A stretch of 64,000 bases of DNA. It comes from an uncultured Granulosicoccaceae bacterium (GTDB lineage Bacteria; Pseudomonadota; Gammaproteobacteria; Granulosicoccales; Granulosicoccaceae). Location: positions 1-64,000 of the forward strand of contig CALDUO010000070.1 in assembly GCA_937923745.1 (NCBI GenBank). Reading direction: 5' to 3'. Positions 10,616 to 26,804 of the stretch are shown piece after piece. Under the pieces are notes generated by a model. The model was not told the origin of the DNA. It did not search any database and was given only the letters and a program-made list of their open reading frames with translations. The number at the start of each line of letters is the position of its first letter. Position 1 is the first letter of the stretch. Made by a program: the position numbers and the translations under genes.

Positions 10616-13600
10616 TCAGAAATGATTGCGGTAGTTAAGCCCAACCATACTACCGGTCGTGCCAAAGCTGCCGAGCTCATCCTGATCCTGGTTATGACTG
10701 AATATCACACTCAACTCATCACCGCCCAAGACACGAATACCTGCACCCGTATCGACCGAGAACGATAGATCCTCGCGAGGCCAGTTATGCCCCAGCGTGA
10801 CATTGGCAAAATACCGCGGTGACCCGGACTGCGGATAGTTACCATAGACATTGCCACGATTGATACCGGCGATAATAGCCAGCTGACTGTTGTCGGTGTT
10901 TAGCACGTCCTCAAGGTTGAGTCCATTAGAGAATCGAAGCTCGGCCGGTAACGTGTCATCACGTTCATTGGTCTGATGGGTGGCCGCCAAACTTAATGAC
11001 CACGCATGACCTGCAAACGTACTGCGTCTGCCGACTTCTGCCCGAGACTCCATCCGTCGTGCAAATACGGCCTGTTCGACCCGCCCCATAATTTCGTCGG
11101 CGCCGAGCCCGAGTGCAATAAAGTCACGTGAACCCAGTGGCAGCTCAAGACGCGTGGACAGCGCATTTCTGATTGCGGCCAATCCCAGCGTTGAGTTATC
11201 GGTGTACGGGGCATTGAATCGGAAATCGGCCGAGAACAGACGCCGGCCCGAACGATCACGCCAATTGTAATTCCCCAACCCATAAAAAAGATCATGTGTG
11301 TCTGTCGATGAAAAACCGGCACTCAGGCTACCGGCATGACGCCGGTTGGCAAACCACGACGACAACTCTAAATCTGCACGACTGGCCAAATCTCCAGCCA
11401 GATCACTGAGAAAAAGCGTCTCTGTGCGATATTCATGTTGGGTATAGTCGATACTGAATCCGGTAACGCCCAAGCCCTGCAGCGTGCGCTTAACACCACC
11501 GGGATCATTGTTAAAGGCAAACGAGTGACGTAAGTTGATGCCGGTTGATGTCACGCTTAATGCGTCAGCTGATCGCTGAATAAAACGTCCGCCGTAGTAG
11601 TCCGGTCGGGCATCACGCAAAGTTCTGTACTGCAGGTCGGTGGCATGCCGTTCAGATGGCTGCAAGTAACTGTCGAGTGTGTCACTTGATAGTGCATAGG
11701 CTTCACTGACTCGTCCGAGTGAACGCAAAGCAACAATCTGTGAGGCACTGGTCATCGCGCCTGCGCCCAGCAGTGATTCAATTTCTTGCAGGTTGTTGTC
11801 GTTTAGCGCGAGTGATACCTGTTGCCATGCCGGTGTTTTGATTCGTGCCTGATGCAACCTTGCAAGATAAAGCCGCGCATGATCCATACGTTGCGTCGCC
11901 ATCAGCCATGACATAATGACCTCTTGTTGGCCCACCGATTTTGCAGTCAGGTCACCAGGCTGTGATGCCAACATCCAACGCACGACCCGCTCGTTTTCTT
12001 CCGCGGTGCCGAACTTTGTGATGAGTCGTGCGTACTGCGCCAGTAACGCATCCTGATCATCGCGTGTGCCGTTCACCAGTACCGGTCGCAACCGGGTCAG
12101 AGCATAATGACGCACAAGGTACGCCTGTTCGGCACGACCCACGACATCCAGTGCATCTGCATAGGTCAGTAACATGCCATAGTCGGAGTCCATGGTGTCG
12201 ATCAGTTTTTCAAACCAGCCAAGACTTCGCTCGACATCACCGGTTTGATATAAGCCGACGGCCACCGGTGCCCAGAGTCCCGGTCTGTTTTCGGCGATCG
12301 CGACCGCTTCATTGAGATAATGCGTGAGTGATTCGTCGCGATTGTCTGAGATATACAGCCATAACAAACCTTCCAGTGCCTGAGTGTTATCCGGATCGAG
12401 CGACAGTGTTTGTTGGTAGGCGCTTTCCGCCAAAAGGGAATCCCCTTCACGCTGATAATTTTCAGCCCTCAGCATCCAGTATTCTGGCGACGCATCGAGC
12501 GCTGCCGTGTGTTCGTCAAGTTCTGCATCATAGTGGGTGTTGCTGTCGGTATTTAACCGCATAGCGGACAATAAATACCGTGGCTCTCCAGTGCCCTGCC
12601 ACAACGACTCGGCATGTGCCACAGCGGCCCGTTTATCGCCCGACGCCTCCAGCGCCGACAGCAGCAGATCCGCGACCTTCTGGCGTTCAGCTTCACTGTC
12701 AATAATGGGTAATGCTGGCTGAATCGCAGCAAGCAGCCGTGGCCGCTCGTAACGCTCGGCAATTTTTAAGGCGATACGAAACTGCATGGGCGTGATGGTT
12801 TTTAAATGCTCGCCGGATTCCAGTTGCTGCGCAATAACCGCAGCTTCATCGGGTTGATCGACGCGCCAATTCAACTCCATGCGTTCCAGCACGACGCGAC
12901 CCTGTTCACCGTGACGATTGGCCAGTCGATTCCAGGTTGCCAAAGCCTCGTCATACAGTACGTGACGTTTGTAATGGTCTGCGAGCAACACAAGCCAGCT
13001 GCGGGTCTCTCCATACCGAGCCAGCAAACCGTTGATAACATCAGCTGCAACCTTGGGTTCACCATTGTGCTCATAGGCGCTAATCAGCCGCCTCAACAGG
13101 TTATTATCCGGTCGTTGTATCTGCGCCAGTTGCCCGAGCGATCGCGCCGTGACTGACGGATATCGATTCAGTTCTGACAATCGGGCCAATTCGTTGAGAG
13201 CGCGTATATCCGGCTGTTGTTCCACCAGCCATTGCCATTGAGTTTGCGCACCAACCGGGTCACCGGTCCACTCCGATAACTGCGCTAATCGCAACCGTAA
13301 CGGGCGGCTGTCGGGATAACGTGTGACGCCACGCTGTGCCCATTGCATGCCGGTCTCAAGATCACGCGTGGCCATCGCCAGATCAATACTGGTTTCAATG
13401 AGAGACTCATCTTCAGGCGCAAGCGTTGCCAGATGCGCATGCCAGGCTAAGGCCTGGTCATAGTCTTCGCGGGTGCGTGCCAATGAGACGCCTTGTTGCA
13501 GCAGGTCGATATTGTCCGGTGTCTCGGACAATGAGGCTACCAGGGTTTCCCACGCCTTTTCGTTGTCACCGGATGCTAACTGTAGTGATTGAATTTTGGT

Positions 13601-14605
13601 TCTGAGAGTCGCTTGCTCCTGCTCCGGTACGTCATCGAGCGTCTCGGACAAATACGCTGCCGCAAGATCCGGACGATTGGATGCCTCAGCCCACCGGGCG
13701 GCTACTGTTAACCAATGTTGACGCCGCGCCGTATCGGTATCAGCCAGCGCACGATATCGCGGATACGCAAATTGCGGTTTTCCGGTCTCCAGCAGTGCAC
13801 TGGCAATCGCTTCATTCTCGGTTTCACTGTAGTGGTCTGACAACAGCAATTGGTCAATGAGTGCCTGCTCGGCAGCACGTTGCTCGGTGAGATGAAAAAT
13901 GCGAAGCAACGCAAGCTGTGAATCCAACTTTGAGCCGGTGTCGTCTGCCCTGAGTGACGCTTGTGTAAAACAGGTTTCTGCCGGTGCCAACTGCTGATCT
14001 GCCATAAAGAGTCGGCCACACACCAAATACCAGCGGGCCGCCTCAGACTCATCATTGATAGCCAGTAGGTGATAAAGCTCCCCGGTGAGTGATTGATCGT
14101 CGAGGCGATAACTCAGCGATGCAGACCGTGCCAGCAACGGTGCCTGATGCAACGTCGGATCGTTGGTCACTGTGAACAATTGCGCACGTAATGCAGCTGC
14201 CAGTGTGCCGGACGGAGGCTCTGTGGTCGCTTCAACCTGTTGTGCCACCCGCTCAAGATTCAGGCGAAACTGATCGGTATCGGAGACTTCAATAGCCGGG
14301 TAACGTTCCAACAGTGACTCGGCCTCGAAAAACTGTTCTTCACGAATGAACCGGGCGAGCACCTGCTCAAGATTACCTGTGTCTTGTTGGTCAGTTTGTT
14401 TTAATGAGGCCTGCTGCGCCCTGAAATAAGCAATATCAAGTTCGTCCAGCGCGGATTCCTCAGCGCCTACCGCAGCACCCAACGACAGATCAAACGTGTC
14501 GCTGGAGGGTTTGAGAATAACAAAGCCCACCACAAACAGCACTGCAATACCGCAGAGCTCAGGCCAGGGTATCAGCTTCTCACGCATGACAGTCGAGTTT
14601 TGCAT
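10616..14605 (-). CDS. pelB: PelB: inner-membrane-anchored TPR scaffold and outer-membrane Pel export barrel
   Basis: 1329 residues, somewhat longer than the Pseudomonas protein of about 1190. A single membrane segment (about residues 13-32, GIAVLFVVGFVIL) is followed by a long region of tetratricopeptide-like helical repeats (about 40-950). Typical repeat fragments are YQREGDSLLAESAYQQTLSLDP and LARSLGQ-type helices. The last ~350 residues are rich in alternating aromatic and polar residues and end in Phe (GLNYRNHF), the signature of an outer-membrane beta-barrel. PelB exports Pel and positions PelA in the periplasm. It follows pelA with a 26-bp overlap; AGGA sits 9 nt before the ATG at 14605, so I prefer it over the internal ATG at 14587. 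Confidence 0.93.
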   Translation of the reverse strand: MQNSTVMREKLIPWPELCGIAVLFVVGFVILKPSSDTFDLSLGAAVGAEESALDELDIAYFRAQQASLKQTDQQDTGNLEQVLARFIREEQFFEAESLLERYPAIEVSDTDQFRLNLERVAQQVEATTEPPSGTLAAALRAQLFTVTNDPTLHQAPLLARSASLSYRLDDQSLTGELYHLLAINDESEAARWYLVCGRLFMADQQLAPAETCFTQASLRADDTGSKLDSQLALLRIFHLTEQRAAEQALIDQLLLSDHYSETENEAIASALLETGKPQFAYPRYRALADTDTARRQHWLTVAARWAEASNRPDLAAAYLSETLDDVPEQEQATLRTKIQSLQLASGDNEKAWETLVASLSETPDNIDLLQQGVSLARTREDYDQALAWHAHLATLAPEDESLIETSIDLAMATRDLETGMQWAQRGVTRYPDSRPLRLRLAQLSEWTGDPVGAQTQWQWLVEQQPDIRALNELARLSELNRYPSVTARSLGQLAQIQRPDNNLLRRLISAYEHNGEPKVAADVINGLLARYGETRSWLVLLADHYKRHVLYDEALATWNRLANRHGEQGRVVLERMELNWRVDQPDEAAVIAQQLESGEHLKTITPMQFRIALKIAERYERPRLLAAIQPALPIIDSEAERQKVADLLLSALEASGDKRAAVAHAESLWQGTGEPRYLLSAMRLNTDSNTHYDAELDEHTAALDASPEYWMLRAENYQREGDSLLAESAYQQTLSLDPDNTQALEGLLWLYISDNRDESLTHYLNEAVAIAENRPGLWAPVAVGLYQTGDVERSLGWFEKLIDTMDSDYGMLLTYADALDVVGRAEQAYLVRHYALTRLRPVLVNGTRDDQDALLAQYARLITKFGTAEENERVVRWMLASQPGDLTAKSVGQQEVIMSWLMATQRMDHARLYLARLHQARIKTPAWQQVSLALNDNNLQEIESLLGAGAMTSASQIVALRSLGRVSEAYALSSDTLDSYLQPSERHATDLQYRTLRDARPDYYGGRFIQRSADALSVTSTGINLRHSFAFNNDPGGVKRTLQGLGVTGFSIDYTQHEYRTETLFLSDLAGDLASRADLELSSWFANRRHAGSLSAGFSSTDTHDLFYGLGNYNWRDRSGRRLFSADFRFNAPYTDNSTLGLAAIRNALSTRLELPLGSRDFIALGLGADEIMGRVEQAVFARRMESRAEVGRRSTFAGHAWSLSLAATHQTNERDDTLPAELRFSNGLNLEDVLNTDNSQLAIIAGINRGNVYGNYPQSGSPRYFANVTLGHNWPREDLSFSVDTGAGIRVLGGDELSVIFSHNQDQDELGSFGTTGSMVGLNYRNHF

Positions 14606-17600
14606 GACCTGTATCCTGGGTTTTAAACTGATAACGCGTAACCGATTGACGCATCACACTGTGTCCATGTTGAGTTGCCTGAGGCACCTCAGTACCGCTG
14701 ACCGCACCACCTGCAAAGCTCACCGTGCACTGACCGCTCTTGACACCACCGATCTCCAGTACCACAGGGACATGACCCTGCACCCTGAACGTTAAGCCCT
14801 GCGATGTTTGAGCCCATTGCGTGACGACACCATTGGCTGACACCAGATAAGGATTCACAGGTTGCGTGGTTTGTGTGCTTAACGTCACCGTGTTGGAGCC
14901 GTCGGTGTGCAGATAACTGCCGTCATGTAACGCGGTACTGCCAATGACGCCCTGACTGTTCACAGTGTCTGCCCATGCGGTGGCACCTGCTACCCGGAAT
15001 GACCGAATGTTGCCAAGATTACTGAGTTTCCATCGACCATCAAGGTAACGTGCAACGCCAGCCTTGCGTGCATCGGGGACTTTGGCCGCGTAATAGCTGC
15101 CGTATACCGGATGTGCATCCTGTCGCATAGACCAGTGATAGACCTCACTCAACGCTACCATTGACGAACGTTTGGTACCGGCGTAAAAGTGATAATAGAT
15201 ATTAATCGGTTTTAACCGTCTTGGGTGTTCGGTCATCTCCAGCGTTTCGATAACACGTCTGAAGCCATCAAACGGACCCAACCAGTCATTGGTGTAAACA
15301 TTTTCGTTCAGGATGGGGGCATAGACCTGAATATGCTCACCGACAGGTCGTGCCATTGGGCCAACAGCTGCCACTGTGGGGTTTGCGCGACTCATCGTTG
15401 TAAACCCGCCATTCATATTCAGAAAACCCTGCTCTGCCGCGTATTGCAGTGCATTTTCTTCCGGTAGCGCAGCACCTGACCACAGCACCATGTTGGCCTG
15501 TTTGCCCTTGGGCGCCAGTTCCCTATTAATAAAATCCATTGACCCGCCCAGTTCACGCTCAATATTAAAACGGTAACCGTCAATCGGTAAGTTATACAGT
15601 CCGCTGGGCTCGTTCTCTTTGAGTGCCACCCAGTCGTACGGGTGACTGTAGGTATGAGAGGCCAGCTCTACATTTGGCAGACTAAAAATATCTTTGGCTA
15701 CCCGAAACATGCGATCCCGGCGATCAGCATGGTTGTCGATACCGACCATTTCGCCCTCGACCACTGAGATTGTGTGCGGTACCGGAAAACGTTCGAGTAT
15801 GTCAGTCTTGATGACCTCGGCACCGAGTCTTTTCGGACCGGGCATCTCTGCCCATGACGGTAACGCATCACCATCAATGTGCGATAACCATAACCGTCGG
15901 CCATTTTCGGTGGTCACATCAGGCATGGGCATCGGTGTGATAGCAAATGCGGTTTCGATCAGTTCAAAGGGGTTGAGGCGCCAGGAGGCGTTCAGTTCTA
16001 CGTCAATGTTAATTGCAGCTTCGATCGCCACATAACCACCCCATGGTCCGGTAACTGCGACATCGAGTGAGTCTCCCTGAGCGTCGGAGTACTGCACATG
16101 CACGGTGTTGTCAGCTCCGGTGTTTCGCACCGGGAATGTGACTGCGGTCAGACGTGGCAGCAACCGTTTTTCAAATTGTGTTATTGGGCCTGCAACAGTG
16201 AGTTTGGAAGATCGAAAATCAAAACCGCGCACAGGCTCCAACCCGATGGTCTGCAGGGTTGTTGCCGACAGATCAGCAGCCGGTTTACCAAACATCAACA
16301 ACGGCACGCCATCGTTGACTTGTGCATCGATCCACGTGCTAAGTTGTGGCTGATCGTATGCGTCATAACCATAGGTCACTATGCCTGCCAAACGATCACG
16401 CTGCATACGGTTGGGTAGTCCGTCCGTTGCAATGTCGTGATACACAGGCACGTAGCCGTAATATTCCAGCGGCATGGCCAATAGTTTATGGATTGGGCTA
16501 TCGGGCAGTGCTCCATCGACGGTGCTGTCAAACATCAACATGACCTGTCGGGGTTTGACATCGAGCGTGCCGACACCAACATAGTCAAGCCCGGGTGTTG
16601 CTACCCAGGGTATATAACCCTGTTGCGCAATACGTTGTGCTACGGCGACTGCGTCATCTCGCTCGGAGGGTGGCAGGTAATCAATGACGATAACGTCTAA
16701 CCCATAGGTTTGACTCGCAGTATCCAGCCAACCGGTTAACCACTCACGATCAGCCGCAGGCACATCCACATATCGCTGACGGGCATTGTTCCAGCCTTTG
16801 TACAGTGACTCTGCTGCAATCGCATCAAGGTGAGGTGCAATCGAGTCGAGCACTTCAAAGCCACGGTTAGCGATCAGTCGCAACGACGGATGCCGTTTTT
16901 TCATCGACGCGATAATGCCAGCCAACGCCTGTTGTTGATTTTGTCGAACAGTGTCGTCGGTGCTGATCAGCTGAAAGCTATCCATGGTATCGAGGAACAC
17001 GCCATCAAAACCCTGAGCGACGAGTTCGTCGATTCTGCGAATCACAAACTGTTGCCAACCGGCAGACGTTAGATCCATGACACGGCTGTTCCATGCGCTA
17101 TTGACTGAGGCTACCCACTGTTCATTGACAGGTTCGCTATAAACACGATCAGGTCCAACCTCACCGATACTAAAATAGGCGTAGGTCGTCGCACCGTTGG
17201 CGGTCAGTGCCTGCAGGTCGGTCGGTTTAATATTGGCCGATTCCAGAATCAGGCGGTCAAATTGCGACAGTATCTCGATGGGCGGATTCGCATCATAAAA
17301 GACCGCGACGCTCGTGTCCCTGATCGACGCAGGCAATAGACCGTCTGCGGTGGCTAAGCGGTATTCAGGGGTTGCCCCTGTATCGGTTGATCCGGTTCTG
17401 AGTGCACCCGAGACAGTCGAGTGGTTGCCACTTTGACCGAAGTCAGCCGTGAGCACCTGTTCAAGTAGGGCCTCATCGCTCAGGTGTGTATGGTCTTCAA
17501 CGTTCGCCAACTGAGAGGGTCCGGCAACCAATTGTGGTGTCGACACGAGTGGCATGCCTGCCAACATTCGACCTACCCCTCGATTGGCAGTCGCAACAAT

Positions 17601-18080
17601 CGTGGACCGCTCACGCCCGGCATCAGCAAAGGTGCCACTGTGGACAATTGTTTGGGTGTCGGTGTCAGTGACATCGAGACGTAGTCTGACTCTGGGTTTA
17701 CGGTTTAAACCCTTTACGTACTGCCATTCGTATACTGTCGTTTGAACCGCATACCGTGCCGTAGCTGGATCAATTAATGTTGCGTCTTGTGCATTCGCAG
17801 ACACTATCGAACGAATGCCTCGCGCGTTCAAATGCGCTTCGGTTAACGCCATTGCACTCTCTGCCGCTGTGGATGCAACAGCCCCGGCAGTCGTCGGTTG
17901 TGTGATCACTGGCAAGATCGCCCAGGTTGCGTCAATCGATGCACCGGTCGCGGCGCCGGAGATTGCACCCGCAGAATGCGCAACTGCTGCATCTTGCGCC
18001 GTGTTTCGTGTGTCGGTCGACGAAAAACTCAAGCAGCCCGCGATGACCGATAAAAGAAAACCGTAGAGTAACGCTTTCAT
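14580..18080 (-). CDS. pelA: PelA: Pel hydrolase/deacetylase, here a lipoprotein with an extra N-terminal PelC-like domain
   Basis: 1166 residues, about 220 longer than Pseudomonas PelA (about 950). Residues 1-16 form a lipoprotein signal with lipobox VIAGC (Cys16). Residues about 51-178 resemble PelC: the blocks TWAILPV, a helix with LNARGIRSI, and ARYAVQTTVYEWQYV match SWVLLPV, LRKRGVSNL and ARYGLTGTVHEWHYR of the separate PelC of this operon. Residues about 255-500 are the GH114-like alpha-1,4-N-acetylgalactosaminidase domain (FSIGEVG, FDGVFLDTMDSF). A Rossmann-like middle region follows. The polysaccharide deacetylase domain carries the metal site Asp738 (SHIDGD) and His809/His813 (SHTYSHP), with spacing as in known PelA. 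It starts with a 1-bp overlap of the pelG stop (TGATG). Confidence 0.93.
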   Translation of the reverse strand: MKALLYGFLLSVIAGCLSFSSTDTRNTAQDAAVAHSAGAISGAATGASIDATWAILPVITQPTTAGAVASTAAESAMALTEAHLNARGIRSIVSANAQDATLIDPATARYAVQTTVYEWQYVKGLNRKPRVRLRLDVTDTDTQTIVHSGTFADAGRERSTIVATANRGVGRMLAGMPLVSTPQLVAGPSQLANVEDHTHLSDEALLEQVLTADFGQSGNHSTVSGALRTGSTDTGATPEYRLATADGLLPASIRDTSVAVFYDANPPIEILSQFDRLILESANIKPTDLQALTANGATTYAYFSIGEVGPDRVYSEPVNEQWVASVNSAWNSRVMDLTSAGWQQFVIRRIDELVAQGFDGVFLDTMDSFQLISTDDTVRQNQQQALAGIIASMKKRHPSLRLIANRGFEVLDSIAPHLDAIAAESLYKGWNNARQRYVDVPAADREWLTGWLDTASQTYGLDVIVIDYLPPSERDDAVAVAQRIAQQGYIPWVATPGLDYVGVGTLDVKPRQVMLMFDSTVDGALPDSPIHKLLAMPLEYYGYVPVYHDIATDGLPNRMQRDRLAGIVTYGYDAYDQPQLSTWIDAQVNDGVPLLMFGKPAADLSATTLQTIGLEPVRGFDFRSSKLTVAGPITQFEKRLLPRLTAVTFPVRNTGADNTVHVQYSDAQGDSLDVAVTGPWGGYVAIEAAINIDVELNASWRLNPFELIETAFAITPMPMPDVTTENGRRLWLSHIDGDALPSWAEMPGPKRLGAEVIKTDILERFPVPHTISVVEGEMVGIDNHADRRDRMFRVAKDIFSLPNVELASHTYSHPYDWVALKENEPSGLYNLPIDGYRFNIERELGGSMDFINRELAPKGKQANMVLWSGAALPEENALQYAAEQGFLNMNGGFTTMSRANPTVAAVGPMARPVGEHIQVYAPILNENVYTNDWLGPFDGFRRVIETLEMTEHPRRLKPINIYYHFYAGTKRSSMVALSEVYHWSMRQDAHPVYGSYYAAKVPDARKAGVARYLDGRWKLSNLGNIRSFRVAGATAWADTVNSQGVIGSTALHDGSYLHTDGSNTVTLSTQTTQPVNPYLVSANGVVTQWAQTSQGLTFRVQGHVPVVLEIGGVKSGQCTVSFAGGAVSGTEVPQATQHGHSVMRQSVTRYQFKTQDTGHAKLDCHA

Positions 18081-19462
18081 CAGGCAGTTACCTCCCGATC
18101 CCGCATGAAGGTTCTGAATTCGATCTCATCCAATTCCCGTGACAACATGATGATGCCAAGCAGTGCCGTTAACGCCATCGAAACACCGAACCCATAACCG
18201 TAATACGCTGGGCCCAGCTTCAGGGTAACCAGACTGAAGACCGCATTGGTCACAAATAACATTACCGTCAGAATCAACGCATCTCGCAGCTTGTCGAGAT
18301 AAAAACACACGTTCAGTATCGCCAGCATCAATACCTGAGCCGCAACACCAACAAGGTCAATATAAAAAAGTGGCAAATACTTGGGTGAGATCCCTAGCCA
18401 GTGCACAAGAGTGGGGCCAAATGCATACAACAACAACACGGTGACACCCTGTACCCGAACAATCTGAAAAACACCCTGACGTACCGCGAGTACCATCTCG
18501 TTACCCAGCCGTTCAATTTCCTGCAGACTCGCGTTGCCACGCACAGCCGCGAAAAAACCGTCATAAGCCTCGGCAAAATCAGTTTCAATTCGAATGAGAA
18601 AAACCGCCATACCCGGAATAATTGACAGGTAAGCTAAAAATATCGGCAGGTCATAAATAACCGATGTGCGAAGCGGACCAATAATGGCTTCCGAGGTGGC
18701 AGGGTTCAGCCAGAAAATAAACTTGTCGACCCAAATACCGAAGTTGTAGAAAAACCCGATAAAAATCAGTGACGGAAATATCTGACGGCGGATCAGAAAA
18801 TCCATGCGCACCGTCTCTTTTACCGGGTAGTCCGGTATCACGACACCCAGCATCAAAAACAACAATAATGAGTGACCGACCAACAGACCGGTCAGCAATC
18901 CGTTTAAGCCGAATGACAGCAGCAAAATAGACAGTACGACGGTACAGCTATACCCGGCCGCAAACGCCCACAGTACCAGTTTGAACCGGCGCAACCCGGC
19001 AACAAAAATGACAACTATCCAGATATTGGACAGCACCACAAAATTAGCCAGCATCAAGAGCTCGTAGGAAAGTGGCTCATGAAACCAGAGTGTTAACACA
19101 AGCAACCCAAATGCTGCACTAACCAAAGTGGTTAACAGCACAGCACCGAGCAAATTGGCGTTAATCAGATGGTCTTTACCTTCGAACAGCCGGTCGGCTA
19201 TAAATCGGGTAAACACCAGCTGCAAGAGGCCCGACAGTATCAATGAGGTTCCCATCATCCACGTTGTGGATGTCGTGAACTGCTTGATTTCCACACCACC
19301 TACTTTCTGGGAAATAGCGACGATACCGATCAGCATCACACCCAAAATTGACAGTACCCATGGCCCGGCACTGATGAGTCCGGCAAAACCATACGCTTTT
19401 AATGTACCCGTGAACGTGTCGTCGTCAAGGTACTTACGCAGCTCAAATCCTATACCGGCCAT
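18080..19462 (-). CDS. pelG: PelG: polytopic inner-membrane Pel synthase/transport subunit
   Basis: 460 residues, close to the Pseudomonas length (456). The start at 19462 gives the conserved N-terminus MAGIGFELRKYL; the open frame extends 24 codons upstream into pelF but that part is not protein-like. About 12 hydrophobic membrane segments are visible, consistent with a polysaccharide-flippase-like (MOP) fold. PelG works with PelD, PelE and PelF in the inner-membrane synthase complex. It begins 4 bp after the pelF stop and ends with a 1-bp overlap of pelA, so all are translated from one message. Confidence 0.93.
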   Translation of the reverse strand: MAGIGFELRKYLDDDTFTGTLKAYGFAGLISAGPWVLSILGVMLIGIVAISQKVGGVEIKQFTTSTTWMMGTSLILSGLLQLVFTRFIADRLFEGKDHLINANLLGAVLLTTLVSAAFGLLVLTLWFHEPLSYELLMLANFVVLSNIWIVVIFVAGLRRFKLVLWAFAAGYSCTVVLSILLLSFGLNGLLTGLLVGHSLLLFLMLGVVIPDYPVKETVRMDFLIRRQIFPSLIFIGFFYNFGIWVDKFIFWLNPATSEAIIGPLRTSVIYDLPIFLAYLSIIPGMAVFLIRIETDFAEAYDGFFAAVRGNASLQEIERLGNEMVLAVRQGVFQIVRVQGVTVLLLYAFGPTLVHWLGISPKYLPLFYIDLVGVAAQVLMLAILNVCFYLDKLRDALILTVMLFVTNAVFSLVTLKLGPAYYGYGFGVSMALTALLGIIMLSRELDEIEFRTFMRDREVTA

Positions 19463-19466
19463 AGCG

Positions 19467-21029
19467 TCAGGAAGCCTTTGCTTGTGTGGAGGCAGATGCC
19501 CAATGACGCGCATACACCTGCGCATAGCGCTCAATCATATCGACGTCGTCATAGTAGCGCTCGACTCGCGCCACTGCGGCAGCACTGGCGTCTCGCCACG
19601 CTTGACGATCAGTCAACAGATGTATGACCGCTTCAGCGAATGCGGCAGGGTCAGCAATAGGCACCACTGCACCCGATGCGCCGAGCGCACGATCTGCTTC
19701 ATCGGTGCCAAACACCAATTCAGTGCAACTGCCAACGTTGGTCGTCACAGTCGGTATGCCTGCGGCATAACCTTCGAGAATAACCAGCGGCTGTCCCTCG
19801 GACACTGACGTCAGAACGTTCAGGCCCATTTGCGGCAACATCTCTTCCGGAGACTGAAATCCCTTAAATTTGATGCAGTCACCGAGGTCGAGGCTCTGCA
19901 CCAACTGTTTACATTCTTCGGTATAACCCGGATCCTCCGCTTGTGGACCGATCAGCCAGCCTTGTACATCAGGCAGTTGCGTGCGGATGATACGCATTGA
20001 CCGGATAAACAGCTTGATGTCTTTAATCGGCACCACCCGGCCAATGAGTCCGATAACCGGTGGCGGATTTTGATTCGGGTTGACCCGAACCTCGCTAAAT
20101 CGTTTTACGTTAATGCCGTTGGGAATAATCGTCAGTCGATCAGCAGGCGCGCCATCGCTGATCTGCCGTAGGCGATTACCCTCATACAATGTAAAAATGT
20201 CACTGGCTGTGGCATAGGACATTTTGCCAAGCGAACGAAAAAACCGAATCCACACCTGACGTAAATAACTCATGTTGTCGTTCAGGCCAACCTTAAACGG
20301 GTCGAGGTCTTCCGGAATCCAATCCACTTGTGCAAGGTCAAGCTCCCGCTCTTTGGTATAGATACCATGCTCTGAGATGATATAAGGCGTGCCGGTCTTT
20401 GACTGCAGCAACGCACCCAGAAAACCGGCATAGCCGGTTGACACTGAATGATAAAGTCGAGCCTGCGGCGCTTGACGTGCAATGCCCGCTAACGTAAACA
20501 AAGGATCATGCATAGAACGCACGGTCCAGAAATAGTGATTAAAATCGAGCCCCGCCGGTGCATCGTTATATTGATCTCGAATCGTGTTCCATGCGTCACG
20601 GCTGTGTGCGAGGTCATAACCGGACAGTGCACCTTCGTCTGTTAACAACCGGGTAAACGATTGCGCAAGGGCACATAGATCTTTTGGGTCAGGATCTTTC
20701 AGCGCATCATGCAGTGACGCGTTTTCGGCAAATCGGTCGCGTTGCCGACGTCTTCGCCACCAATTGCTTTTTACCCGCTCCTCTGACGAGCCATCGAGCA
20801 AGCCATGCACTTCCAGGTGTATGACATTAGGCGGTAATTCGTAGAGCGGCTCTTGATACTCGGATGCTTTGGCACCCAAAAAAATGATCGAAAAGCGCGT
20901 ATCCGGCATTCCCTCTATCACTTGTCGAACCCAGCTCGACACACCACCACGTATATACGGATAAGTCCCCTCCAGCAACAGGCAGACGTCGGCCGTTGCA
21001 GTCGGGTTGTGCGGTATTGCGCCGTTCAT
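19467..21029 (-). CDS. pelF: PelF: cytosolic GT4 family glycosyltransferase for Pel synthesis
   Basis: 520 residues from the ATG at 21029, which overlaps the pelE stop by 4 bp (ATGA); an in-frame TTG at 21035 is less likely. The N-terminal domain starts DVCLLLEGTYPYIRGGVSSWV, the PelF signature around the acceptor and nucleotide site. The C-terminal GT-B domain has IGRVVPIKDIKLFI and the EX7E-like SEGQPLVILEGYAAG motif of retaining GT4 enzymes. Known PelF uses UDP-activated sugar (UDP-GalNAc/GlcNAc). It acts with membrane proteins PelD, PelE and PelG, encoded on either side. Confidence 0.95.
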   Translation of the reverse strand: MNGAIPHNPTATADVCLLLEGTYPYIRGGVSSWVRQVIEGMPDTRFSIIFLGAKASEYQEPLYELPPNVIHLEVHGLLDGSSEERVKSNWWRRRRQRDRFAENASLHDALKDPDPKDLCALAQSFTRLLTDEGALSGYDLAHSRDAWNTIRDQYNDAPAGLDFNHYFWTVRSMHDPLFTLAGIARQAPQARLYHSVSTGYAGFLGALLQSKTGTPYIISEHGIYTKERELDLAQVDWIPEDLDPFKVGLNDNMSYLRQVWIRFFRSLGKMSYATASDIFTLYEGNRLRQISDGAPADRLTIIPNGINVKRFSEVRVNPNQNPPPVIGLIGRVVPIKDIKLFIRSMRIIRTQLPDVQGWLIGPQAEDPGYTEECKQLVQSLDLGDCIKFKGFQSPEEMLPQMGLNVLTSVSEGQPLVILEGYAAGIPTVTTNVGSCTELVFGTDEADRALGASGAVVPIADPAAFAEAVIHLLTDRQAWRDASAAAVARVERYYDDVDMIERYAQVYARHWASASTQAKAS

Positions 21030-22129
21030 AACCAAAACTCGGATAAATGTGACAGCGGCGGATACGCTCGAAACGCTGGATTGATGGATTTGATGATTTT
21101 ATACACTTGATTAAAATCACGCCGGGCAAAGGCTGCCTCAGCCAAAAACGGGGACACCTTGGCAGCTGGCATACCTAATCGCAGCGCTTTTATAAAGGCC
21201 ATTTCAGCTTGTTGGGCTTTGCCGCGTGCCAGTGAAATTCTGCCCAAGGTGAACCAGGCATTACGGTTGGTGCTCATAACCAGGGTTGCTTGAGTGGCGG
21301 CGTTAGACGCTTTTTTCAACAATTGCTCACGCGCGATCGGCTCATCTTTTTCAAGGGTCAGAAGCTCCCAGTAATTACTGGCTATCTGTAACCAGGTGTT
21401 TGATTTTTCTTCGCCCATTTGCTCGTTGGCTTGTTTTTCAAGCAACTGAATCTCGCCGTTAAGGCGCGATACTTTTCGATCCAGGGTCTGATAGGCAGTG
21501 AGGCGTATGCGCTCGACCGGGTGACGAACGGCGGCTTTCAGTGTTTCCACTGACAAAGCTGCCCGAATGTTGCCGGCAGCCAACACTTTTTTGTACAGTT
21601 TCTCCTCATCGGGTTCGTATAACACGGTCTCGACCAGACTGCGTCTGCCAATAGCAGCAGTGTCACGACCGATTGGTGCTGTAAACGGCAATTCGGTCGT
21701 TCGGGTGATTTGCCAGTACACCTCTTCCTGGTGACGATTGGCGGCAATATATCCACCGATCAACAAAGCGCCCGCAACTCCTGCCACGCCAGCAAACGGC
21801 ACCAACAACAACGTGCACAATACAAACGAAAACAGCGAAGATTTAACACCTTCATACCATTGAAAACTCAATGCGGTGATCGCGAAAGCCCCCACCACAC
21901 TCAGTACACAATGAACCACCAGCCACACAACAACTGACAACCACTCAAAGCCCTGCATCACATCAAACAGTAACAGCCCTTCCACTACCGTGCAGACGGC
22001 TATCGAGAGGTAGCACAAGCCGAGCAAAAGCGGTGATATCCCAGAGGTGTCCTCAGCCCATTCGATGTTGTCATCGTCAATCGGCAGTTCGGATTCTGGC
22101 GCCGACTCGTAGATTTCTTCTTGAGTCAT
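21026..22129 (-). CDS. pelE: PelE: inner-membrane protein with cytosolic TPR region
   Basis: 367 residues. After an acidic N-terminus of about 30 residues come hydrophobic membrane segments at about 30-55, 62-85 and 92-130, then a soluble helical domain. TPR-like helices are visible from about 250 onward (NRNAWFTLGRISLARGKAQQAEMAFIKALRL). Known PelE is a membrane protein of the Pel synthase complex that bridges PelD and PelF. Its ATG shares one base with the pelD stop. Identification rests on position, length and topology more than on a signature motif. Confidence 0.88.
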   Translation of the reverse strand: MTQEEIYESAPESELPIDDDNIEWAEDTSGISPLLLGLCYLSIAVCTVVEGLLLFDVMQGFEWLSVVVWLVVHCVLSVVGAFAITALSFQWYEGVKSSLFSFVLCTLLLVPFAGVAGVAGALLIGGYIAANRHQEEVYWQITRTTELPFTAPIGRDTAAIGRRSLVETVLYEPDEEKLYKKVLAAGNIRAALSVETLKAAVRHPVERIRLTAYQTLDRKVSRLNGEIQLLEKQANEQMGEEKSNTWLQIASNYWELLTLEKDEPIAREQLLKKASNAATQATLVMSTNRNAWFTLGRISLARGKAQQAEMAFIKALRLGMPAAKVSPFLAEAAFARRDFNQVYKIIKSINPAFRAYPPLSHLSEFWL

Positions 22130-23529
22130 CAGGCCACCTCAGTGTTACTGAGCGAACCATCGGTTACATCTGATTGCAGCCCCCCTGACTCGTCACTGAT
22201 AAACGCAAGACAGCTTGCGCGGGTGTCACCCCGACTGATTTGTTTCAGTCCGACGTGGGTGATAGCGTCATTAAATTCAAGCGAGAACTTCTCCAGTACC
22301 GCAACACCGACACGCCGTAAGTACGCATCGCACTGTGCTTCAGTGACCAATGGCAGCAAGACTACAATGGAGGTATGACCGTCCGTATTCGGGGTAACCC
22401 ATGCACTGTCGAGGCTACGGATATTGCGTGTCAGAAATTCGCTCAACGCTTCGGTCTGTGGAACCTCAGCCAGGTTTAACACCACCAGTGAAGATTGCAC
22501 ACTGTTTTCCCGTGCAAATCGCAAAGCATTATCAAGCTCTGCCATAAAGTTTGTGGTCTTGGACTGACCAACACCACCTGCCCGTGTCAACAAGTCACCG
22601 ATATGCCCACCGAGCAGCGAAAGCGTATTGAGGTTTTCCTGCTGAAACGCCATAAAGTGCATATCGCGCACAGCCAACACACCGTGGAGCTTACCGTGCG
22701 AGTCTACGATAGGCACAACCGCCAACAACCCTCCGGCGTGACGCTCCATGGCATGGGATTCAAGCTTAACGCTTACCAATTGCCGGGATTTGAGCGCCAT
22801 CTTTAAGATGGGATCGAACTGGGGTATTTCCTGCATGTTGCCGATGGTAGCAACAGCTTTAGTGTCAATTACCGAGTCATTTTTCATGGCATAAAGACCG
22901 GCGACCTGTACAGAACAAAATTGCCCGAAAATAGCCATGAGTTCCTGGCCCGCTTCGAGCCCGTCCGCGTGTGTGTTTAACAGAGGACGAATTTGCTGCA
23001 ACGCCTGGCGCAAACTCATGCGCTGGCCAGCCATATGTTCTTCCAGATGGCCATGCGAGACTTTCAGCACGTGATAGTCATTGGAAAATTCTTTGAGTCG
23101 ATGCCTTAGATAGGTATTCTCTGCATCAGACTGCCGACTTCGGGTGCGCCAGCCATTGGAGGTATCACCCACGACAACACACAAAGCCACCATACCTATC
23201 ATGGCCTGTGTCATTACCAATCCACTGAGTGCAGCGTTGGCCTCTATTGGCAACAGAAACACCGCTGACGCCACTAGCGCGCAGGCGGCACCCCATAGGC
23301 TACCGTAACGTGCCGCGAAGATAACTGGCAGAAACGCCAGCCACGCAAATCCGGTCCCTATCGCAAACGGATTTTGTTTAAAAAACAAAAGCCCAACAAC
23401 CGGTAGCGCTAATGCGAAAAAACACAATTCAATGGTCTTTTTGATAACACTGCCGCGTGAACCCTGGTACACGGCCAAACTGTCTGCCAGTGGCGTTTTA
23501 CTTAACAGGCGGAATAAATTGGAAGCCAT
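22129..23529 (-). CDS. pelD: PelD: cyclic-di-GMP receptor of the Pel synthase
   Basis: 466 residues, similar to the Pseudomonas protein (455). Four membrane segments occupy about 32-122, followed by a GAF domain (about 160-315) and a degenerate GGDEF domain (about 325-440). The RxxD cyclic-di-GMP inhibitory-site motif is present as RSLD at 371-374, in the same place as Arg367-Asp370 of Pseudomonas PelD. The GGDEF catalytic motif itself is absent, as expected for a receptor rather than a cyclase. Inference: Pel production here is activated by cyclic-di-GMP. It starts 65 bp after pelC. Confidence 0.95.
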   Translation of the reverse strand: MASNLFRLLSKTPLADSLAVYQGSRGSVIKKTIELCFFALALPVVGLLFFKQNPFAIGTGFAWLAFLPVIFAARYGSLWGAACALVASAVFLLPIEANAALSGLVMTQAMIGMVALCVVVGDTSNGWRTRSRQSDAENTYLRHRLKEFSNDYHVLKVSHGHLEEHMAGQRMSLRQALQQIRPLLNTHADGLEAGQELMAIFGQFCSVQVAGLYAMKNDSVIDTKAVATIGNMQEIPQFDPILKMALKSRQLVSVKLESHAMERHAGGLLAVVPIVDSHGKLHGVLAVRDMHFMAFQQENLNTLSLLGGHIGDLLTRAGGVGQSKTTNFMAELDNALRFARENSVQSSLVVLNLAEVPQTEALSEFLTRNIRSLDSAWVTPNTDGHTSIVVLLPLVTEAQCDAYLRRVGVAVLEKFSLEFNDAITHVGLKQISRGDTRASCLAFISDESGGLQSDVTDGSLSNTEVA

Positions 23530-23594
23530 CTGCGAATCAATACCCTGTTATGGTCATTAACATCCCTTACACCACATGGACCTTTTTAACCAAC

Positions 23595-24149
23595 TTAAAG
23601 AGAAGCGTTTATACTGCTGTCCAAAAATCGAATGCCATCGAGCAATTCATTTAATGTCTCACCGGCAATGCCAGACAGACTTGAGTAGCCCCAACCGGTG
23701 CGCGCATGTGTGGCTTGCCACAACACATCACCTGACTGCAGATCTATCATTTTTAAACTAACGCCAACTGCCGGCTCGCGCTCGGGGTCACTGCGGTAGT
23801 GCCACTCATGTACCGTTCCGGTGAGTCCGTATCGTGCACCCGCACGGGCACCCCACTCTGATGCTTTTGACACCTGAGCTGATGTATCAAGCAGTGCTTT
23901 TAGGGTCAGACTCTCTTCTTCCTGCCAGACGGTCAGGTTGGATACACCGCGTTTTCTTAGCGACGATTCGAGCATGATGGCGGCCTGTCTACCGGCCTGC
24001 GGCGTTTGCGACAGGTTCTCTACCGGTAACAACACCCAACTTTGATTGTCATAAACCTGTATTTTTGGCATTGCATTTTTTGTCGCGCAGCCCACCAAAA
24101 AGCCGGTTATGCACAACAGCACTGTGATCCGGTTAACAATATTTTTCAT
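23595..24149 (-). CDS. pelC: PelC: outer-membrane lipoprotein of Pel export
   Basis: 184 residues from the ATG at 24149 (Pseudomonas PelC is 172). The lipoprotein signal ends FLVGC with Cys21. The mature domain contains SWVLLPVENLSQTPQAG, a helix ESSLRKRGVSNL and ARYGLTGTVHEWHYR, with the conserved Trp in SGDVLWQ. PelC forms a dodecameric ring at the outer membrane that funnels Pel toward the PelB barrel. Here it is the first gene of the operon rather than the third. The same domain recurs at the N-terminus of PelA. The longer open frame upstream (to 24284) is not lipoprotein-like and is rejected. Confidence 0.9.
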   Translation of the reverse strand: MKNIVNRITVLLCITGFLVGCATKNAMPKIQVYDNQSWVLLPVENLSQTPQAGRQAAIMLESSLRKRGVSNLTVWQEEESLTLKALLDTSAQVSKASEWGARAGARYGLTGTVHEWHYRSDPEREPAVGVSLKMIDLQSGDVLWQATHARTGWGYSSLSGIAGETLNELLDGIRFLDSSINASL

Positions 24150-24484: not shown

Positions 24485-25072
24485 TTAGGCGTGCAAGTGT
24501 GATTGGACGACTTGGCGTATCGTCGGCAGGTATTGTGTAAACGACCCGGCCTCAAGCGCTGGTATTTTGGCCTGATCATCCCAGCGTCGCACATTCAGTA
24601 TGGCGTTAAGGTGGGGGTGCTGCGCAAACTTCTTGACCTCTGCCGAAGACATTGGCCCGCCTTGCAAGGACAAGGAGTGTTTTGACGCGTCAGAAAGACT
24701 GTCGTAATACGCGGGCTCGGTTGCACACAGGTATCGTTTTGCATCCACGTGGTATCGAACACAGTCGACAACCAACGCAGGAAACCACGGGGACAGCACG
24801 GCTGCACCCGCCTCATCGTGATGACTGTCAATACCGAGCTCTGCTGCGTTTTCCGGAAATTCGTGTGTATAGTGACCCACATCGTGTAACAACGCCGCCA
24901 CGATCACCTCGTCGCTACTGTTGGCCTGCTTTGCCAGTAGCGCACTCTGCAGCATATGTTCGGACAACGTAAGCTCTTCACCCAAATAAGATTCCGCGCC
25001 ACGTCGATGAAAAATATCGGCAAGGAGTTCGGTGATGTCGTCAGCCCCGGTCATTGTGGTCGTGTCTGTCAT
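24485..25072 (-). CDS. phnZ: PhnZ-like HD-domain mixed-valent diiron oxygenase (phosphonate-associated)
   Basis: 195 residues, the length of PhnZ. It has the family layout: gatekeeper motif YLGE (Tyr29, Glu32), His39 in LSEHMLQ, the HD motif LLHDVGH (His63, Asp64, His67), His84, His108 in RYHVDAKRYLC, QGGPMS and Asp165 in RRWDDQAK. PhnZ cleaves (1-hydroxy-2-aminoethyl)phosphonate oxidatively to glycine and phosphate. Its usual partner PhnY*, a 2-oxoglutarate dioxygenase that makes this substrate, is not in the window. Instead the gene follows phnW-phnA-phnY, where related HDIG proteins are known to occur. A PhnZ-type fold and metal site are secure; the physiological substrate is less so. Confidence 0.8.
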   Translation of the reverse strand: MTDTTTMTGADDITELLADIFHRRGAESYLGEELTLSEHMLQSALLAKQANSSDEVIVAALLHDVGHYTHEFPENAAELGIDSHHDEAGAAVLSPWFPALVVDCVRYHVDAKRYLCATEPAYYDSLSDASKHSLSLQGGPMSSAEVKKFAQHPHLNAILNVRRWDDQAKIPALEAGSFTQYLPTIRQVVQSHLHA

Positions 25073-25226
25073 AGGCGCCCCGTTTCTTTCATGCCTTGGA
25101 TTAGCGTGTAGGCTCGCTTTCTGTGCATGCTGTCGATTTGTGCAAGACTTGATGTTTATCCGGGACCGCTTTTATTCGGGTCCCTTTTTGTAGTGATCCC
25201 TCTCATTACCGGGCCCGCACCCAGTC

Positions 25227-25365
25227 GGGACCAGATTCTCGCTGGGCCAGTTTCTGTCCGGGCCAGATTCTCGCTGTGCCAGTTTCTGTCTGAGCCAATG
25301 TCTATCTGGGCCAATGTCTATCTGGGCCAATGCCTATCTGGGCCAATGCCTATCTGGGCCAGGGC
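25227..25365. repeat. 16-17-bp tandem array, about 8 units, forming the phnY 3' end
   Basis: Units begin gccaatgtctatctgg (two copies) and gccaatgcctatctgg (two copies) at 25294-25357, preceded by more diverged units such as gccagtttctgtctga. The phnY stop (25350-25352) lies in the last full unit, so the final codons of PhnY are repeat-derived. Confidence 0.9.
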
Positions 25366-26804
25366 ATCGACCAGGTTTTGACATTGGTAAAAAATTTCAT
25401 CGCCTCCAGAACCCCCTCCTTGACGCCATTGCCCGAGTCTTTAATGCCGCCAAACGGTGACATCTCGATACGGTAGCCTGGCTGCTCCCAGATATTAACG
25501 GTGCCGACATTTAGCCCCTGAACAAACGCGGTAGCACGACGAAGGTCATTGGTGCAAACGCCTGATGACAAACCGAATTCGGTCGAATTGGAAATAGCCA
25601 TGACTGCTTCGTCGTCATCGGGGACCCGTACAATAGGAATGATAGGCCCAAAGGTCTCTTCCATCACCAATTCACTGTCATGCGGCACATGGTCTACCGT
25701 GATCGGCGGTAACAACGCACCTTGCCTACCCGGATTATACAAAATCTTTGCGCCAGCCTTCTCGGCATCCAGCACCCGTTGCTCAAACAACGCCGCTGCC
25801 TTATCGTGAATGACACAACCCAGTTGTGTTTCGGGATCCATGGGGTCGCCAAAGCGAATAGCCTTGGCGCGCTCCAGAATCTTCGGGATCAGTTGGTCTG
25901 CGACTGACTCCTGCACGAGTATTCTTTTGACGGCAGTACACCGCTGCCCTGAGTTACCGGTAGCGCCAGCCACTGCAAGCGCTGCGGCTTTTTCAAGATC
26001 GGCATCATCGAGATCATTTAATACAATGAGTGGATCGTTGCCACCGAGCTCCAGTGCCTGGCGTTTGTAACCGGCCTTCTCGGCGATCAGCTTACCAACA
26101 GGTACGCCACCGGTGAATGTGATCACCTCTATGTCATCGTTGGTGATCATTTCATCACCTATATCGCCGGGCAGCCCGGTGACTATCTGAAACATCTCAG
26201 GCGGCAAGCCCGCGTCATACAGGATGTCTGCCAGCGTAATGGCGGTAAGTGGTGTCAGCTCGGTCGGTTTACAGACGACGCAGTTGTTGGTTGCGATAGC
26301 CGGTGCAATTTTATGTGCGACCATATTCAGTGGGTGATTAAATGGCGTAATTGCAGAGATTGCCCGCACCGGTTCGCGTAAGGTGAATATTTTGCGATCT
26401 TTACCCTGGGGTGTTAAGTCACAGGAGAACACCTGCCCGTCATCCAGGATAGCCAGCTGACCTGCGAGCATAAAAACATCGTAGGAACGGCCCGCTTCAT
26501 ACAGGGCATGTTGTTGACAGATACCGAGTTCCAGTGTCAACCAGTGCGCAATGGTCTCGCGACGTTCCTGTATCAGCGCAGCCGCTCGAAACAAAATCTG
26601 TTGGCGTTCATACCGACTGAGTTTGGGTTGATAGGCAGCCGCGATACTGAATGCCTCTTTGGCATGCTCGGCGTTGCCTGCCGGGACCGTACCAATGACC
26701 TCATTGGTGTACGGATACAATACTTCAATACGATTCTCGGCATCAACGTGCCGCCCGCCGATACGCATGGGCTCATGTCGAACCGTCTCTACTGCGCGAC
26801 TCAT
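25350..26804 (-). CDS. phnY: Phosphonoacetaldehyde dehydrogenase PhnY
   Basis: 484 residues of the NAD(P)-dependent aldehyde dehydrogenase superfamily. It has the nucleotide-site [11 protein letters not shown], the general base Glu252 in ALELGGND and the nucleophile Cys289 in [10 protein letters not shown]. These positions are close to Glu254/Cys291 as recalled for the Sinorhizobium PhnY. It oxidises phosphonoacetaldehyde to phosphonoacetate between PhnW and PhnA. The start overlaps the phnA stop by 4 bp (ATGA). The name rests on context: without phnW and phnA beside it, the sequence alone would give only aldehyde dehydrogenase. The last residues (MPWPR) come from the tandem array into which the gene runs. 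Confidence 0.9.

Follow-up and report, generated by a model that had tools for sequence, protein, structure and literature searches.

A PelC-like domain with a lipoprotein signal at the N terminus of PelA in some Granulosicoccaceae

Does PelA, the enzyme that modifies the Pel polysaccharide, work in contact with PelC, the lipoprotein ring of the Pel exporter? Two papers from 2025 are at odds on this point: in one structural model PelA and PelC do not interact (PMC12022489), whereas a second structural paper suggested that PelC helps to hold PelA (PMC12141448). In Pseudomonas aeruginosa, PelA reaches the outer membrane via TPRs 9-14 of PelB (PMC12022489). It is also an open question why Pel export needs a lipoprotein ring, unlike the export of cellulose or PNAG. 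A natural fusion of PelA and PelC would allow the disputed contact to be tested directly, and such a fusion had been proposed, from sequence, for the locus described here.

The pel operon and its PelA

The pel operon in the window, a 64,000-nucleotide stretch of DNA from an uncultured Granulosicoccaceae bacterium, is complete and lies on the minus strand. Its gene order is pelC-D-E-F-G-A-B, whereas that of Pseudomonas is pelABCDEFG. The genes pelB, pelD, pelE, pelF, and pelG were assigned from operon position and matches in related pel loci. The features are as follows.

23595..24149, minus strand: separate pelC, lipid Cys21 (9H80 PelC, E=3e-26; Glu at position 119 and Trp149 kept)
22129..23529, minus strand: pelD
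21026..22129, minus strand: pelE
19467..21035, minus strand: pelF
18080..19462, minus strand: pelG (start MAGIGFEL)
14580..18080, minus strand: pelA, 1166 aa (lipoprotein signal, PelC-like domain, linker, glycosidase/deacetylase PelA)
18036..18080, minus strand: lipoprotein signal peptide of PelA, residues 1-15 (from sequence; lipobox IAGC)
18033..18035, minus strand: Cys16, predicted lipidation site (+2 residue Leu; outer-membrane sorting predicted)
17541..17933, minus strand: PelC-like domain, residues 50-180 (sequence matches, profile, predicted fold)
17703..17705, minus strand: Asn126 at the position of PelC Asp119, followed by basic Arg127-Lys128 (alignment)
17613..17615, minus strand: Arg156 at the position of PelC Trp149, the membrane/anchor Trp (alignment)
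17340..17537, minus strand: disordered linker, residues 182-247 (pLDDT below 50 over 182-246)
16551..17315, minus strand: PelA glycoside hydrolase domain, residues 256-510 (PelA 5TCB, E=6e-66; D364 and E424 invariant)
14673..16550, minus strand: remaining PelA core including the deacetylase, residues 511-1136 (9CGY, E=1e-172; Foldseek TM 0.92)
10616..14605, minus strand: pelB, 1329 aa

The reading frame, strand, and coordinates originally given for pelA were right. Its ATG at 18080 overlaps the pelG stop codon as TGATG, and a ribosome-binding-like GGGAGG lies upstream. Its glycosidase domain begins near residue 256, which gives the protein about 210 more N-terminal residues than P. aeruginosa PelA, in agreement with the roughly 200 that had been claimed. 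In a phmmer search, residues 256-1131 aligned with the solved PelA 9CGY (E=1e-172), and a glycoside hydrolase, a mixed alpha/beta domain, a CE21 deacetylase, and a beta-rich domain follow one another in the four-domain order of PelA. Six residues of the hydrolase and deacetylase catalytic motifs (D364, E424, D736, D738, H809, and H813) are invariant across 22 PelAs.

The lipid Cys of the lipobox is invariant in the 14 fused PelAs that we aligned; the other PelAs that we inspected begin with ordinary signal peptides. By the general rule of Lol sorting, a lipoprotein without Asp at position +2 is expected to go to the outer membrane. Since no Asp follows Cys16, outer-membrane sorting is expected, and fused PelA is predicted to be an outer-membrane lipoprotein. 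The lipobox noted originally at Cys16 was confirmed, and a tether to the outer membrane, as suggested originally, is predicted.

The order pelC-D-E-F-G-A-B (window positions 10616-24149) was common to Granulosicoccaceae with and without the fusion and was also seen in two Methylococcales loci (L084 and L088). Rearrangements of pelA and pelB in pel operons were already known (PMC7112194). In two Nitrosomonas pel loci, L105 (9746-13657) and L107 (9974-13672), the PelA matches were spread over two separate reading frames, possibly a natural split, a duplication, or a frameshift. Adjoining the operon in the window, at 24485-26804, are genes for an HD-domain protein and a phosphonoacetaldehyde-dehydrogenase-like protein; their sequences, judged by eye, suggest a phosphonate-degradation cluster.

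Homology to PelC and distribution of the fusion

Residues 50-181 of PelA aligned with the PelC of the same operon by BLASTP (1e-8, 24% identity), and all three blocks of similarity that had been aligned by eye lie inside this alignment. With the whole PelA as query, PelC structures were matched (5T0Z, 4e-5; 9H80, 1e-3), and when the whole source genome was searched with the PelA extension, the only second match was pelC. We then used a profile built from 14 fused extensions alone, a limit by which circularity was avoided. Against solved PelCs it gave 4e-27 for 9H80 (P. aeruginosa), 3e-24 for 5T0Z, and 2e-22 for 5T11, and it recovered every other solved PelC sequence as well; beyond PelC, the only matches in the PDB were weak ones to signal peptides (E about 0.3). 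In Proteobacteria genomes the same profile found separate PelC genes with E values down to about 1e-30. Pfam weakly detected the fused domain, as LpoB or DUF4136.

AlphaFold2, given an alignment of fused sequences only, predicted a confident domain at about residues 45-180, the aligned blocks mostly having pLDDT values of 90 or more. When the predicted domain was compared with the PDB by Foldseek, ranks 1-19 were all PelC chains, with E values to 1e-11 and TM scores of 0.67-0.80 on PelC length. We rejected a generic lipoprotein fold of the LpoB/CsgG type: such folds ranked below all PelC chains, and in the PDB the sequence profiles matched PelC alone, apart from the weak signal-peptide matches. 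In the model of full-length PelA, residues 45-180 form one folded unit and residues from about 248 to 1136 another, and this second unit matched 9CGY with a Foldseek TM score of 0.92 on the target. Low-confidence tethers lie at 15-44 and 182-246, and linker length among fused PelAs was 55-80 residues. The homology between the two domains is far above chance and is confirmed. Both comparisons proposed at the outset, of profile and of predicted structure, came out in favor of PelC, and the claim of a second PelC-type domain at the N terminus of PelA proved genuine.

A survey of pelA genes, also proposed beforehand, found the same extension in other genomes. It covered 48 Granulosicoccaceae genomes, which were also all those examined of the order, and the fusion was present in at least 19 of them, one being a single contig of 7.78 Mb. 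In a 20th genome (G406), a PelC-like domain follows pelG in frame at the end of a contig. A separate PelC was present in 20/20 of these genomes. The fusions were confined to three genera (g1, g2, and g4); the fusion was absent from g3 (13 genomes with PelC) and from the single g5 genome, and the search gave no match in g6. The extension was also absent from about 55 intact PelAs of other families and from the PelAs in 370 genomes drawn from the class Gammaproteobacteria. In another family, an apparent fusion of a different kind (G590, with PelC inside a 1507-aa frame) was rejected as an out-of-frame read across pelB: the DNA is GC-rich and the real PelC start lies within the frame.

The fused domains formed a single clade (support, 99/100). 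In a tree of the PelA core, the fused genomes grouped together (SH-aLRT, 92) and the unfused clade was separate (100); the PelA of L076 groups with the fused proteins, its contig beginning inside the hydrolase, and its fusion state was left unscored. Both trees are compatible with one fusion event. The domain tree gave no sign that the fused domain descends from the present Granulosicoccaceae PelC: its long branch attaches elsewhere, possibly because of long-branch attraction.

The fusion had been put forward as undescribed, and we found no description of it among the open-access papers that we searched, a partial check of priority. The section covered of a survey of PelA homologues (96 and 177 homologues) does not mention a PelC fusion, and the passages covered of a pel operon survey discuss rearrangements and fission and no PelA-PelC fusion.

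Residues lost and kept in the fused domain

Two residues of PelC have been reported to be essential for its function. In P. aeruginosa, Asp119 in the D-loop of PelC docks onto arginines of PelB, and changing it abolishes biofilm; Trp149 reaches into the membrane next to the acyl chains and stabilizes the ring and its lipid anchor, and the W149A change breaks the PelBC complex, leaving PelB without PelC (PMC12141448). All 19 fused domains (14 aligned plus five further copies) lack both an acid at position 119 and Trp149. The separate PelCs of Granulosicoccaceae have Asp or Glu at 119 together with Trp149 in 21/21 cases (13 fusion genomes and 8 unfused), and nearly all other PelCs keep these features too. 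Glu121 is replaced by Arg or Lys in 10 of the 14 aligned fused domains, and at position 111 Glu has mostly given way to Arg or Gln. The docking face carries a mean charge of +2.5 in the fused domain versus 0 in the partner PelCs. The TP-x-AG motif is gone from most copies, and the loop-helix 70-98, which lines the pore and faces the periplasm, averages 11 residues (range, 4-32) versus about 30 in PelC, a few copies retaining its full length. The lipid Cys is kept in the fused domains, and so are the fold-core residues W36, P40, N43, G66, Y103, G107, W112, W140, and G148. Because the known ring contacts are lost and the fold core is kept, we regard the domain as a PelC paralogue and not as a spare ring subunit.

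Mean identity was 30% for the fused domain, 50% for PelC, and 54% for the PelA core, and the fused domain was the fastest-evolving of the three in 78/78 genome pairs; the linker evolved faster still. In the pairs for which it could be estimated, dN/dS of the fused domain was 0.14-0.35, rough values since dS was near saturation. A ratio below 1 means that the domain is not drifting freely and, judged from these sequences, is under purifying selection.

The separate PelC differs between the two groups of genomes at D-loop position 120, which is Arg or Lys in 13/13 fusion genomes, Asn in 8/8 relatives without the fusion, and Gly in almost every other PelC. It is possible that this position changed together with the fusion, but the alignment confounds the change with clade.

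Possible roles of the fused domain

We propose that the fused domain is a repurposed copy of PelC that serves as a tether and docking module, holding PelA near PelBC; we give this reading an even chance of being right. Its basis (the fusion, the homology, the fold, the lipobox, the lost ring residues, the restriction to one clade, and the selection) is sequence and prediction, from which we infer the lipidation, localization, docking partner, and effect on export of fused PelA. A whole copy of pelC, with lipid signal and domain, would have been joined in frame to pelA in the forebear of some Granulosicoccaceae, the original pelC being retained for the ring. The product would run from an acylated Cys16 through a short spacer, the PelC-derived domain, and a flexible linker of 55-80 residues to a normal PelA hydrolase/deacetylase. 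The fused copy would have shed its PelB-docking and ring-stabilizing features, kept the lipid anchor and fold core, and acquired a basic face. It may replace or strengthen the TPR-only recruitment known for P. aeruginosa PelA, and the linker would keep the enzyme within reach of PelBC. With PelA held beside PelBC at the outer membrane, the Pel polymer would be deacetylated near its exit, and deacetylation might be directly coupled to export, as originally suggested. Because a separate pelC is retained in all 20 fusion genomes, the ring has no need of the fused copy. On the tether-and-docking reading, the fusion uncouples anchoring from ring building, and PelA is expected to act at the outer-membrane pore.

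A bolder reading, which we hold only tentatively and think less probable, makes the domain an integral part of the PelBC gate, bound in or on the PelC ring. It would set a single PelA at each pore and let only deacetylated Pel into the channel. If true, it would describe a covalent modification-export machine and give PelC a new, enzyme-recruiting role.

The domain might instead cap or bind the periplasmic face or pore of a 12-membered PelC ring by its basic face, placing PelA above the pore. The basic D-loop face would lie opposite acidic PelC residues (Glu52, Glu55, Asp79, and Asp84 in P. aeruginosa numbering), and the lipid anchor and long linker permit such a position; however, Glu52 and Glu55 are poorly conserved among the partner PelCs, and a basic face could equally well bind phospholipid head groups, or it may bind PelB. 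We consider capping rather unlikely, although the tether-and-docking reading overlaps with it if the docking partner is the PelC ring.

That the domain is a mere spacer, the lipid anchor being the sole useful part of the fusion, would fit its rapid evolution relative to PelC and the PelA core and the absence of the known functional PelC residues. We rate this possibility low as well, since the fold core is conserved, dN/dS is well below 1, the domain is confidently folded in the prediction, and the rate of evolution is higher in the linker than in the domain.

Insertion into the PelC ring as a normal subunit, the other arrangement suggested originally, found no support: Asp119 and Trp149 are lost in every copy, and most copies have a reversed D-loop charge and lack TP-x-AG and much of the 70-98 loop-helix. 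A fused domain filling one ring position (e.g., 11 PelC plus 1 PelA), with one PelA per pore in a fixed place, is therefore improbable. The PelC fold is still present, the lipid anchor of PelA would adjoin those of PelC, Benedens et al. suggested that PelA may contact PelC subunit K, and PelC residue 120 is basic in all 13 fusion genomes. Against this stand the residue losses, the clade confounding of the residue-120 signal, and the observation of solely 1:12 PelB:PelC classes in P. aeruginosa (PMC12141448).

An assembly, frameshift, or start-codon artifact, conceivable because the window comes from a MAG of 85% completeness, is refuted by the same in-frame arrangement in no fewer than 19 independent genomes, the 7.78-Mb single contig among them, and by the conserved lipobox and ribosome-binding-like site.

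With a PelC-derived domain in PelA that has lost the PelB-docking residues and kept the anchor, the question of PelA-PelC contact becomes testable. Compared with PelC, a dodecameric outer-membrane lipoprotein (5T0Z, 5T10, 5T11, and 9H80), the fused copy is alike in lipobox Cys, fold, and core residues; it differs in lacking Asp119 and Trp149 and mostly also Glu111, Glu121, TP-x-AG, and much of 70-98, and in being covalently joined to PelA. Its enzyme portion, from residue 256 on, is like the PelAs of P. aeruginosa and P. thermotolerans (5TCB and 9CGY), catalytic-motif residues included, whereas known PelA, with its cleaved Sec signal, is soluble and has neither lipid nor PelC domain (PMC12022489). 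Among other systems, the nearest parallel in function is PgaB of the E. coli PNAG system, an outer-membrane lipoprotein polysaccharide deacetylase (PMC4432689), as is predicted for fused PelA, but PgaB carries its lipid directly and lacks an export-ring domain; by analogy, fused PelA may have converged on the PgaB layout. A BcsZ-BcsC fusion in the cellulose operons of Zymomonas (PMC7112194) joins a modification enzyme to an export component as here. It differs in polymer and partners, and fused PelA carries a duplicated and diverged ring component.
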